A stretch of 64,000 bases of DNA from Bremerella sp. TYQ1 (GTDB lineage Bacteria; Planctomycetota; Planctomycetia; Pirellulales; Pirellulaceae): positions 4,092,001 to 4,156,000 of the forward strand of contig NZ_CP083740.1 of NCBI RefSeq assembly GCF_020150455.1, written 5' to 3'. Positions 43,035 through 49,465 of the stretch are shown in pieces. The notes under the pieces were generated by a model. It saw only the letters and a program-made list of their open reading frames with translations. It did no database searches and was not told the origin of the DNA. Made by a program: the position numbers and the translations under genes. The first letter of the stretch is position 1, and every line of letters starts with the position of its first letter.

Positions 43035-44516
43035 ATGAAATCTTTGCTGCATGCGTTCGCCGGCTGCCTGCTGGCCCTCGTGCTGACTTCAGCTGCGTCA
43101 GCGGAAACAAAGAAACCGAACATCATCGTCATCATGGCGGACGATCTCGGCTACGGCGACGTCGGTTGCTACGGCGCGACAGGAGTTGAAACTCCCCACA
43201 TCGATTCACTTGCCAGCGATGGGCTGAAGTTCACCAGCGGGTACTGCTCGACGTCGACTTGCACGCCGACACGTTTCGCATTTCTGACCGGCATGTACGC
43301 GTTTCGTCAGCAAGGAACCGGCATCGCCCCGCCCAACGCCACGTCGATCATCAAGCCTGACACAACCACGACGCCCGACGTGCTGCAGTCGGCAGGCTAC
43401 AAAACGGCGGTTGTCGGTAAGTGGCACTTGGGTCTCGGCGAAGGCAAAGGCCCCGACTGGAATGGCGATCTCAAGCCAGGCCCGCTCGAAATCGGTTTCG
43501 ATTACTGCTTCCTGCTGCCGACCACCAACGACCGCGTCCCGAGTGTTTATGTCGAGAACTACCGTGTGCGTGATCTCGACCCGAGCGATCCGCTGTGGGT
43601 GGGCAATAAGAACCCCAACAATCAGCCGACCGGTGTCACGGCTCGCGATACCCTGAAGCTCGACTGGAGCCATGGGCACAACCAAACCATCCACAACGGC
43701 ATCGGCCGAATCGGTTTCTACACCGGTGGTCATGCGGCTCGCTGGCGCGATGAAGACCTGGCCGACGAATGGGTCAAGAAGTCGAACGAGTGGATCCGTG
43801 CTAACAAAGACGAACCGTTCTTCCTGTTCTTCGCTTCGCATGATCTGCACGTGCCCCGTATGCCGCACGAACGTTTCCAGGGCAAGTCCGAAATGGGCCT
43901 TCGCGGCGACGCGATCGTGCAGCTGGACTGGTGTGTCGGCGAACTGACGAAGACGCTCGACGAATTGAACCTGACCGACAACACGCTGATCGTGTTCTGT
44001 AGCGACAACGGTCCTGTGCTGGACGATGGTTACAAAGATGGCGCCGTCGAAAAGCTGGGCGATCACAAGCCGGCCGGTCCGTATCGCGGCGGCAAGTATA
44101 CGCCGTTTGAAGGAGGCTGTCGCACACCGTTCATCGTCAAATGGCCTGGCGTTGTGAAGCCTGGCACCACGTCCGACAAGATGATCACCACCACCGACCT
44201 GGGTGCGACATTCGCAGCACTCGTCGGTCAGGAAGTTCCCCAAGGTGCTTTGCCCGATAGCGAAAACCTGAAGCCAACACTGCTGGGCGAAGCGAGCGCC
44301 AAAGGTCGCGACTACGTCGTGGAAGAATCGCCGCGTGGCATCGGCCTGCGTGTCGATCAGTGGAAGCTCGTCCGCCAAGGTCGAAACAAGAACCAGAGCT
44401 ACTCGCTATTCAACCTGGCCAACGACCCCGGCGAAGAAAAAGATGTCTCAAAGCAAAACGCTGACAAGTTCGCCGAAATGAAAAAGCTGCTCGCCCAAAT
44501 CGAAGCAGGCAAGTAA
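43035..44516 (+). CDS. Secreted arylsulfatase-type sulfatase
   Basis: A 493-residue type I sulfatase exported by a signal peptide (FAGCLLALVLTSAASA). The catalytic Cys at residue 76 lies in CTPTR, the CxPxR motif converted to formylglycine. Metal ligands are likely in IVIMADDLGYGD and FCSDNGPVLDD; GKWHLG and KYTPFEGGCRTPFIVKWPG are also typical. Sulfatases release sulfate from marine polysaccharides, and Planctomycetes have large numbers. The substrate is not evident. It converges with a second sulfatase gene; no formylglycine-generating enzyme or anSME gene is nearby. Confidence 0.95.
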   Translation: MKSLLHAFAGCLLALVLTSAASAETKKPNIIVIMADDLGYGDVGCYGATGVETPHIDSLASDGLKFTSGYCSTSTCTPTRFAFLTGMYAFRQQGTGIAPPNATSIIKPDTTTTPDVLQSAGYKTAVVGKWHLGLGEGKGPDWNGDLKPGPLEIGFDYCFLLPTTNDRVPSVYVENYRVRDLDPSDPLWVGNKNPNNQPTGVTARDTLKLDWSHGHNQTIHNGIGRIGFYTGGHAARWRDEDLADEWVKKSNEWIRANKDEPFFLFFASHDLHVPRMPHERFQGKSEMGLRGDAIVQLDWCVGELTKTLDELNLTDNTLIVFCSDNGPVLDDGYKDGAVEKLGDHKPAGPYRGGKYTPFEGGCRTPFIVKWPGVVKPGTTSDKMITTTDLGATFAALVGQEVPQGALPDSENLKPTLLGEASAKGRDYVVEESPRGIGLRVDQWKLVRQGRNKNQSYSLFNLANDPGEEKDVSKQNADKFAEMKKLLAQIEAGK

Positions 44517-44541
44517 GCTTCCACTGCGTCATTTCAAACCT

Positions 44542-44573
44542 AAAGCCAGGGGCCATTCGCTCCTGGCTTTTTT
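44542..44573 (+). terminator. Intrinsic terminator after the first sulfatase gene
   Basis: A perfect 9 bp stem AAAGCCAGG/CCTGGCTTT (44542-44550 and 44562-44570) is followed by TTT and then CG; the loop is 11 nt. It lies 25 nt after the stop codon. Confidence 0.8.
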
Positions 44574-44645
44574 CGTTGGGAAACAGCAATGCTTGGTGGT
44601 GCATCGCTCTACGCCTGCGATGCACCACATTATTTCAGGAACTGT

Positions 44646-46283
44646 TTACCGTTTCCGGTTCGGTTGAGGGCCGCCTTTGGGGAGGGGGCCGGCCATCGGA
44701 GGCGTTTCGAAGAACTTGCCTCCTTCGACCACGCGAGGATCACCGCTCGTTTTTAGTTCTTCCATCAGACGCGCGGTAAGTTCCGCTTTGACTTTCGCGT
44801 ACTTCGGATCGTCGGCGACGTTGGTCATCTGATCCGGGTCGGCCTTCAAATCGTACAGTTCCACTTCGGGACGTTTGCCGAAACAACGTTCGAAAACAGG
44901 CTTCACCTCAGGGTCGTTTCGGTGCAGCACCATGAACGCTTTCGTCGGTCCGGCGTCGTCGTCCGGGAACGTCACGAACGTTTTGTTGGTCAGTTCGTCC
45001 TTCGTGGGCGGGTTATCACTATCCAAATGATAAGGAGCCCCCATTGGCCAGCGATTCGGCTTGAAGTTGACAATCAGTTGGTAGTCGGCCGTTTGAATAC
45101 CTCGCATCGGATACGGCAGATTCCCTTCTCGGGCCATCTCGACATGGCGTTCGCGTCCGGTGAATGCCGCCGTGCGAGAAGGATCGACAAGGCCTTCCTT
45201 CTCCGACTTCAAAACAGGCCACAAGCTTTTCGCGGTCATCACTTCGGGAATCTCCTGTCCGCCCGCTTCGAGGAATGTCGGAGCGAGATCGGGCAAGATC
45301 GTGAAGTCGTCGACGACGCGTCCGCCGTTCACACCAGGCCCGGCAACGGTCAACGCGACATGCGTGCCGAAGTCGTACAAGTTGCATTTCCCCTGTGGAA
45401 AGCCAGGTGGGCCATGGTCGCCACTGACAACGATCAGAGTGTTGTCGAGTTCGCCTGCCTCTTTCAATTGTTCCATAAGAACGCCCAACGCCGCATCAAA
45501 CGCCTGAATCTCGCCGAGGTAATCGGCCAGGTCTTCTCGCACGACGGGAACATCTGGCAGGAACTTCGGCATCTTCCCTTTCAGATCATCCGGGTTGATG
45601 TCCCACAACTGCTTACCGCTGCCGGCGATCCACTTACGATGCACATTGGTTGGCCCGAACCAATAACAGAACGGCTGGTCTTCGTTACGATCTTTCAGGA
45701 AGTCGGCGAAGTTGCCGCGTACCTGACCATACAGTTCGTCCTTTGCTTCTTGAGCGGACTTCCCTTGTTTCATGAGCGCCGTAGCACGCTGCGAGAACTG
45801 ATTGAACGACCCGCCTGCTTTCTGATAGGCATACTTGCCGCCACCGTAAGGAGCATCGACAGGAGTCCCAGGGCTCCACACTTTATAGGTTTCGCCAATG
45901 TGGTAGCCGGCATCCTTCAGCAGCAGCGGATAGCTGGGAATCGCGGGATCCCAAACGGCACCACGCAAAATTGCCCCACGTCCGGTTCGCCAAAAGTATT
46001 GCCCTGACAACAGAGAACTACGGCATGGCGTACAGGACGGAGCATTGACGAAGGCGTTCTTAAACAGCACGCCACGCTTGGCCAACGCGTCGAAGTGCGG
46101 CGTCTTCACGACATCGTTGATACCACCAGGTTCCAGTTGACCGTAGGCGCTGGCCTGCTTGCCCCAATCGTCGGCGAAGGCAAACAAGATGTTCGGGCGT
46201 TTCGTTTCCGCGGCTTCCAGAGAGGCTGCTTGCCAAGCAAAACAGCCGGCCGCAAGCACAAGCAATAGGGTGCGTCGAATCAT
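44646..46283 (-). CDS. Secreted sulfatase (second, divergent)
   Basis: A 545-residue sulfatase with a signal peptide ([22 protein letters not shown]). The formylglycine site is the Cys at residue 84 in [13 protein letters not shown] (CxPxR with a second Cys inside). Metal-binding [10 protein letters not shown] and [17 protein letters not shown] segments are present. It is quite different from the neighbouring sulfatase and belongs to another subfamily, resembling the heparan-N-sulfatase-like group in TSLLS-type features, though substrate remains unknown. The ATG at 46283 leads straight into the signal peptide; an upstream ATG would add a 50-residue leader through a palindromic repeat. It is convergent with the first sulfatase gene. 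Confidence 0.93.
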
Positions 46284-46406
46284 GTTGAGGTGTTCCAGAT
46301 CGAGGTGCGGGGCGAGATAAGTGGAGGCTTGTATTCTAGACAGAATGAAACCACGACGCACGAACCGAATGCGGGAAATGGGCATCGAGCGCCGAACATC
46401 ACTGGA

Positions 46407-46432
46407 TGGTCTAGGTTTACAAACCTGGACCA
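46407..46432. repeat. Palindromic interspersed repeat, copy 2
   Basis: A 26 bp palindrome with one mismatched pair: TGGTC/GACCA outer arms and AGGTTT/AAACCT inner arms around AC. Its layout is the same as the palindrome at 41106-41137, with compensating base changes in the stem. It lies between the second sulfatase and the flavin monooxygenase. Confidence 0.65.
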
Positions 46433-46451
46433 CTCTTTCACTTGGGATGAC

Positions 46452-47771: not shown

Positions 47772-48293
47772 ACGGCCAATTGTAACGATTTTCAGGAATG
47801 AACGAGATGAGGCATTCTGCGCGAAATTCTATTCCCTACGAGCGGGTCGAATTGAGAATGATCTCGCCTTAAAAAAAGGTGGTCAAAGCGTGACCATAGA
47901 TATTTTTCACTTGAATGTAGCATTTTTACAGAAACTAAATGAGCTCTTCAGGGTTTCAACTGATAATTCCTGATTTGTTGAATAATTGCCACCCTGCCTG
48001 TAAACGATTTACTTGCCTAGTGTTAGGCGCATAAGCTATGTTTAGCGATAGCTCACACAGCTGCTGCGGACTGCCGCATACTAATTTTGTTGTCTTTTTG
48101 CGAATTACCGAAATAATAAGTTTCTTAGGTAGCGAAATTGTTCTGTGTGAGACTACAATTTAATTGCACGGGATATCGCAATCCCTGGAGACTTACGGAA
48201 CACCTCCTGATTGATTGACCCTCCGGCACCTGCCCCAGATGTGCCGCCCAACTCGACCCAAGTTGTCGGAAACATATTGAAGAGGCTTAGGAC
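47772..48293 (+). other. Long AT-rich intergenic region upstream of the HhH/HTH gene
   Basis: This 522 nt region between divergent genes is clearly more AT-rich than the rest of the window. No coding frame has support. It contains a small GGGAT/ATCCC hairpin near 48170-48192 and several TACAAT/TTAATT-like boxes, none with a convincing -35 partner. A long leader or several regulated promoters for the gene at 48294 would explain its size. Confidence 0.4.
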
Positions 48294-49400
48294 ATGCGTT
48301 TTAACAAGATCACCTCGGCTGAAGACTTTCAGCTGATTAACAGCTTCGATGAAGTCAAACAGCGACTGCTCGAAGACACCAAGTATGCTGACCGTCTAGA
48401 CAAGCCACTGGCTTACTGGGCACTTCCAAACGACCGCCGCTTGCCGCTGGCGTTCCTGGGCCGCACGATCGGCGATTTGCTTGCAACGCCATTCGACGAG
48501 CTTTCGGCTACCCCTGGCATCGGTCAGAAGAAGATCAGCTCGCTGGTCACGCTGCTCAACCGTGCTACGAAGGAAGACGCCGGTTTCGAGCCTTCGGTCG
48601 CTACGCCGAAAGAAGCGCCTGCCGAAGACAACTTCTCGACGAAGAGCCCACTGGATGCCGACGGCAACTTCGATCCTTCGCTGGTATCGGAAGTCCTATG
48701 GCTTCGCTGGCGAGAAACGGTTCGTCGCCATAACCTGGGCAACGAACGTCTTGGTCGTCTTGCCCCAACGCTGAACGATCTGCCAACGGTCATCTGGAAC
48801 ACGCCACTCGAGTTCTACATGGGCCACAGCCTGGCTGAAATCCGCCGCTTGAAGACCCACGGCGAAAAACGCGTTCGCGTCGTGCTGGAAGTCTTCTACC
48901 GCGTTCACGAAACGCTTGATCTCGCTCAAGGCCAACCACACCTGGCCATCACGCTTCGTCCGAAGTTCGTCCCTGTGCTCGATACGTGGGGATTGGACCG
49001 CCTGGTAAGCGAATCGCCACTGAGCCGCAGCGAAGTGATGGATCGCCTGACGCGTCCTCTGCTGCAACAGATCATGACCGACGCCGGCGAAACGGTTCAC
49101 GACCTGGCCGCAGGACGTCTCGGTTTGGAATCGGCTCCACAAAGCGTTCGTATGCAGGCTCGTAACCTGGGCGTGACTCGTGCTCGCATCTACCAACTGC
49201 TGGAAGATTGCCAGAAGATCATGGCCGTTCGTTGGCCAGAAGGTCGCGCTTTGCTCGATTCGCTCTGCAAGAAGATCGAAGAAAAGCCAGGCGAAGGGGA
49301 AGCTTGCCAATTGCTGACCGCCACGCGTGATCTCTTCTACGCCACCAAGACCGAAGAAGAAGAAGCTGGTGCCGATGAAGTGGAAGTCAGCGTCAACTAG
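48294..49400 (+). CDS. Putative DNA-binding protein with two HhH (alpha-CTD-like) segments and a sigma-4-like HTH
   Basis: I know no named family for this 368-residue cytoplasmic protein. Residues about 52-90 (LGRTIGDLLATPFDELSATPGIGQKKISSL) resemble the RNA polymerase alpha C-terminal HhH domain. Residues 162-206 (SLAEIRRLKTHGEKRVRVVLEVF) form a second, weaker copy. Residues 288-320 (QARNLGVTRARIYQLLEDC) resemble the recognition helix-turn-helix of sigma region 4, where LGVTRERIRQIE is typical. Between the HhH segments lies a Pro/Ala/Ser/Thr linker, and the C-terminus is acidic. Codon choice is strongly uniform (CTG, CGT/CGC, GAA, AAG), as in highly expressed genes. A long upstream region and a strong terminator show it is monocistronic. 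Confidence 0.8.
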   Translation: MRFNKITSAEDFQLINSFDEVKQRLLEDTKYADRLDKPLAYWALPNDRRLPLAFLGRTIGDLLATPFDELSATPGIGQKKISSLVTLLNRATKEDAGFEPSVATPKEAPAEDNFSTKSPLDADGNFDPSLVSEVLWLRWRETVRRHNLGNERLGRLAPTLNDLPTVIWNTPLEFYMGHSLAEIRRLKTHGEKRVRVVLEVFYRVHETLDLAQGQPHLAITLRPKFVPVLDTWGLDRLVSESPLSRSEVMDRLTRPLLQQIMTDAGETVHDLAAGRLGLESAPQSVRMQARNLGVTRARIYQLLEDCQKIMAVRWPEGRALLDSLCKKIEEKPGEGEACQLLTATRDLFYATKTEEEEAGADEVEVSVN

Positions 49401-49431
49401 TTGGCCGCTTCACTTCTCGCAAGAAACAACC

Positions 49432-49465
<34 letters not shown>

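Follow-up and report, generated by a model that had tools for sequence, protein, structure and literature searches.

Introduction

The C-terminal domain of the RNA polymerase alpha subunit (alpha-CTD) is a helix-hairpin-helix (HhH) fold of about 60 residues, whose DNA-contact set comprises R265, N268, C269, G296, K298, S299 and E302. In sigma factors, region 4 binds the beta flap of the polymerase (PMC2988021), and the accessible text of PMC2613000 reports that R584 contacts position -31 and E585 position -33, and that substitution of R588 relaxes -33, yet no specific R588 contact is seen in the crystal structure. As far as the accessible parts of the defence literature go, MzaA of the MZA system is termed a sigma factor (PMC9523054); PbeB and PbeD of the PbeABCD system have 66 and 152 residues, with many pbeAC pairs found without modification genes (PMC6459918); and a list of the partners of this CxC-ATPase system, in which PbeD is identified as a DndE, mentions a sigma-related helix-turn-helix (HTH) for some DndH only (PMC10853773). 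These systems are compared here with a gene of Bremerella sp. TYQ1 at 48294..49400 (+ strand) of a 64,000-nucleotide stretch of contig NZ_CP083740.1 (positions 4,092,001 to 4,156,000; hereafter, the window), which a sequence-only reading had taken for a possible planctomycete-specific transcription factor with alpha-CTD-like and sigma-4-like parts. Its product, an uncharacterised protein of one planctomycete order, the Pirellulales, seems to consist of parts otherwise known from the promoter-reading machinery of RNA polymerase.

Results

The gene for this HhH-HhH-sigma4 protein of 368 residues was delimited by the listing of open reading frames (ORFs), a homologue search and a family alignment, and its start codon is backed by the N-terminus kept across relatives; the ORF, its length and the motifs first read from the DNA were all correct. 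The AlphaFold2 model, obtained with a 70-sequence alignment, is all-helical (mean pLDDT 88.7, pTM 0.66, low confidence at residues 97-113), with helices in similar order at 9-92 and 133-208 and a C-terminal domain at about 225-348, and HhH repeats and a sigma-4 fold appear in it where they had been claimed.

Both fold and sequence profile agree with a sigma-70 region-4-like domain at residues 238-326 (49005..49271, +), which shares with primary-type region 4 (PF04545) the fold over 80-95 residues, the RxG motif of region 4.1, the [VI]TRxR[IV]xQ helix and a WPEG..LL end resembling H5; an origin from extracytoplasmic function (ECF) sigma factors was not supported. The recognition helix (residues 296-313; 49179..49232, +) was placed by the model, by conservation and by alignment with E. 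coli RpoD, in which R296, A297, Y300 and Q301 align to R584, E585, R588 and Q589. At these -35 contact places, the 70 aligned members keep the arginine in 69 cases and the glutamine in all 70, whereas glutamate to alanine and arginine to tyrosine changes occur in 69 each. The helix reads RAR[IV]YQ in the 120 listed short forms and RER[IV]RQ in 21 of 21 entries retrieved with the long relatives described below, P0123 and P0124 among these entries being one protein. Since alanine and tyrosine stand at the places of E585 and R588, tied to -33, and the arginine of R584, tied to -31, is retained, a shifted or relaxed -35 element is expected for the short family, with the preference at -31 predicted to persist and that at -33 to change. 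Hydrophobic L276 and L278 occupy the places of RpoD F563 and I565, which would be at most compatible with docking on the beta flap. The Pfam sigma region 4 cut-off is passed only by the long relative P0121 (P0123 scores 24.0 against 24.1), the window protein being below it. Region 2 is absent from the two Pfam matches of the window protein (E-values up to 10) and from the 25 of 38 Pfam families shown for the 70 members; the N-terminal part of the window protein models as HhH repeats. A viral fold library gave weak matches only, sigma factors included.

The first HhH module (IGDL..EL..TPGIGQKK; residues 32-92; 48387..48569, +) is defined by structure models, superposition and alignment: 59 of 62 residues superpose between it and the alpha-CTD (PF03118), both share the pattern IGDL..EL..TP.xG.K, and RuvA, UvrC, RecR, NusA and LigA, tried as models for it, fit more poorly than RpoA. 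A second HhH-like repeat (KTHGEKRVRVV; residues 146-208; 48729..48917, +) is indicated by the helix order in the models and by a profile comparison that links it weakly to module 1 (probability 28); in the paralogue L021, Pfam HHH_5 falls at 193-233 with an E-value of 9.3e-5, under its cut-off. None of the 70 members reaches the PF03118 cut-off (four give E-values up to 1, the best being 0.052). From the alpha-CTD contact set only G296 and K298 are kept (G77 and K79), N46, R49, L50, K80 and S83 occupying the other places; R265, N268 and C269 of E. coli align to N46, R49 and L50 through a one-residue gap near R265 that makes this placement uncertain, and an invariant R48 lies nearby. Foldseek with the N-terminal model found no significant match, in a comparison whose VIA rows cover mainly residues 1-107. 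The two alpha-CTD-like segments originally proposed hold as an HhH fold for module 1 and more weakly for the second repeat.

Alpha-CTD matches are also found elsewhere, at least four in 19 of 20 genomes (that of TYQ1 included) and two in the 68%-complete G003. They involve a 444-residue protein with two true alpha-CTD domains and, by eye, tetratricopeptide-like repeats, beside a tgt-like gene (L143 1456-2790, -; about 2158955-2160289 of G000:C1); a stand-alone 108-residue alpha-CTD protein (L144 1594-1920, +), with similar short frames of about 100-134 residues in Pirellulales relatives; and matches within open frames of about 1420 codons (G006:C274:871130-871300 and G017:C1:4104907-4105074).

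Conservation singles out the same motifs. The 70 diverse members have a mean column identity of 42%, and GIGQKK (75-80), THGEKR (188-193) and VTRARIYQ (294-301) are among their most conserved stretches, with G75, G77, K80, T188, H189, G190, R193, T295 and Q301 present in all 70 and K79, K192, R296, A297, R298 and Y300 in 69. Which modules the protein contains, and that these three presumed DNA-contacting motifs hardly vary, is established computationally. The protein search scored 7999 candidates and returned 1687 relatives at E <= 0.001, the 120 listed being unnamed, hypothetical or uncharacterized. Carriers amount to 15 of 20 genomes (9/9 of the genus, own included, 2/4 others of the family and 4/7 others of the order), to 89 of 297 genomes and 54 of 123 genera in the order sample, where the long form of G550 is counted in, and to 11 of 292 in the phylum sample, where the one carrier outside the order, G288, has a long form. 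Nearly all 56 loci from the public genome contigs scanned are titled planctomycetes or plain 'bacterium'; L052 bears the title Candidatus Nealsonbacteria and probably comes from a misbinned contig. Six diverged paralogues, tandem and dispersed and with altered or decayed recognition helices, occur in one Pirellulales genus (G296 and G354; L166, L167, L168 and L169). Single-sequence Pfam, NCBIfam and PDB searches with the window protein, as well as the alignment against PDB sequences, gave nothing firm, and weak matches to LON, an OmpR regulator and glutamine synthetase were dismissed as insignificant. A literature search that mostly lacked reach into subscription papers found no publication on this protein.

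Long forms are rare (one in 241 genomes of the family, plus G288 in the phylum sample), with 770 residues in G550 (matching P0124, Rhodopirellula sp. SM50) and 988 in G288 (P0121, Alienimonas californiensis). At both loci with known neighbours (L171 8212-15414 and L172 7876-15798), the long HhH-sigma4-extension gene opens a PbeABCD operon, overlapping the pbeA start by four bases; after pbeA come a small ORF, resembling PbeB in place and size only, and then pbeC and dnd_assoc_4. PADLOC gave 704 and 615 bits for PbeA and 421 and 410 for PbeC; TIGR04062 reached 78.8 and 82.4 bits, above its cut-off of 74.25, and TIGR04095 554.6 and 526.1 bits, below its cut-off of 600. In L171, a phosphorothioate (PT)-associated methyltransferase gene is divergent (TIGR04096, 566.8 bits), and next after the operon comes a protein with partial likeness to PD-Lambda-5_A. 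The long-form query also found 55 further genomes in the 392-genome phylum sample, by weak matches only (E 1.7e-6 to 1e-3) and nearly all over the sigma-4 region. Near the 57 short-family loci, the window included, there were no Pbe genes, save one 44.7-bit fragment match in L037; in the TYQ1 genome TIGR04095 (PbeA) gave at most 30.6 bits against the cut-off of 600, the level of all 14 control genomes; the short form had no dnd_assoc_4 match, the controls being equally silent; and PADLOC returned nothing for the window protein.

The gene is present in a single copy in TYQ1 and stands alone in the window, as had been described, and neighbour families are common to at most 11 of the 57 loci, many with short flanks. 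Its codon adaptation index (CAI) of 0.75 is the highest among 49 non-overlapping window ORFs of at least 150 codons, lies within the range of 18 reference ribosomal-protein genes (0.63-0.78) and exceeds that of rpoA (0.715). In this genus the protein is probably abundant. Codon use typical of high expression, noted from the sequence, is borne out in this genome, but not as a general family trait: across 7 loci of six other genomes, with the gene recognised at 6 of these loci, its ranks were 1st of 10, 2nd of 9, 4th of 8, 7th of 11, 8th of 13 and 11th of 12, and three of the six genomes had only two ribosomal genes as reference. Upstream, the AT-rich region (47785..48160, +) has 39.9% GC against 55% for the window, just 0.03% of 376-base windows being equally low, and a promoter-like TTGTCT-16-AATAAT (48090..48117, +) sits in a block that has been largely kept across the genus. 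An inverted repeat, CAACT-7-AGTTG (48249..48265, +), ends 28 bases before the start and has one exact occurrence per genome in six of nine genus genomes, always before this gene; it therefore looks gene-specific, a possible autoregulatory site, and was rejected as a shared operator. Leader RNA folding was no better than that of shuffled sequences (z -0.95). Downstream, the terminator reported earlier corresponds to an intrinsic terminator-like hairpin of 12 pairs and a T run (49432..49459, +), and an overlapping Rfam RcsR1 match at 49372-49463 (27.3 bits, threshold 60) was dismissed. Beyond a divergent FAD monooxygenase-like gene, two genes named by eye as sulfatase-like occupy 43035-46433.

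Discussion

The proposal that this is a transcription factor finds partial support; its modules are recovered computationally, and contact with RNA polymerase is plausible. Fold and conservation strongly argue that the three motifs bind DNA, and there is about an even chance that the protein is a DNA-binding transcription factor in which an alpha-CTD-like HhH module and a second HhH repeat are joined to a region 4 of primary-sigma type, sigma regions 2 and 3 being absent; its link to the polymerase is likewise put at about one half. The HhH module or modules would grip the minor groove upstream, in the major groove the sigma-4 helix would read a -35-like element, and the sigma-4 domain may touch the beta flap, in which case the protein would recruit, steer or compete at promoters, rather than start transcription alone. 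Against this, a region 4 unaccompanied by regions 2 and 3 may also have turned into a plain HTH. A regulator or nucleoid-type protein binding only DNA, with a sigma-4 domain that never touches the polymerase, is possible though doubtful: it would suit the finding that all 120 listed short forms have changed two of the four residues for -35 contact, the lack of any region 2 match, the codon bias at ribosomal level in this genome and the lack of a widely conserved gene partner, but the likeness to primary-sigma region 4 extends past the HTH (RLG[IL], WPEG..LL), beyond what a plain HTH needs.

HhH and HTH folds can also bind RNA, and codon use resembles that of ribosomal proteins; nevertheless, an RNA- or ribosome-linked role is very unlikely, as both of the closest folds belong to readers of promoter DNA and inspection by eye of the few shared neighbours recognised no gene of translation. 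That long relatives head PbeABCD operons would fit a short form that acts in defence on its own, still serving PT/Pbe-type or other anti-phage systems. This seems improbable, given the short-family loci devoid of Pbe genes, TIGR04095 at control level, the missing dnd_assoc_4 match (silent in controls too) and a mostly single copy, widely present in the order, that better suits a household role. A bolder version of the promoter-reading factor, rather unlikely as a whole, would make it a single polypeptide mimicking that half of RNA polymerase which reads the promoter upstream (alpha-CTD plus sigma-4); it would sit on the beta flap in place of sigma region 4 and provide the promoters of Pirellulales with another -35 code, usual at -31 and different at -33, with common descent with, and perhaps domestication from, the Pbe-operon protein.

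The fusion of alpha-CTD-like and primary-sigma-like parts offers a residue-level test, through the changed -33 reading predicted from alanine and tyrosine at the E585 and R588 places, of whether polymerase parts are put to new use in bacteria as factors acting alone. Compared with alpha, the window protein has no alpha N-terminal domain. Compared with primary-type sigma factors, it carries RLG[IL] for RFGI and WPEG..LL for HPSRSEVL, and differs in having no region 2 or 3 matched, in the alanine and tyrosine of the short forms and in the HhH fusion. In NCBIfam, both long forms match MzaA (NF041931) best, through its C-terminal sigma-4 part alone and at 25.0 and 28.8 bits against a cut-off of 800, the window protein having no match. 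Close counterparts are also the long proteins themselves (P0121 and P0124), which share HhH repeats (two to four, by eye) followed by sigma-4 over 342 aligned columns, but differ by a C-terminal extension of about 420 residues, the canonical RER[IV]RQ helix and their place as first gene of the operon. The accessible parts of the Pbe descriptions do not name the gene of these long proteins (PMC6459918, PMC10853773), which is apparently a fifth component of some PbeABCD operons, and these relatives suggest a tie between sigma-like promoter readers and anti-phage defence.
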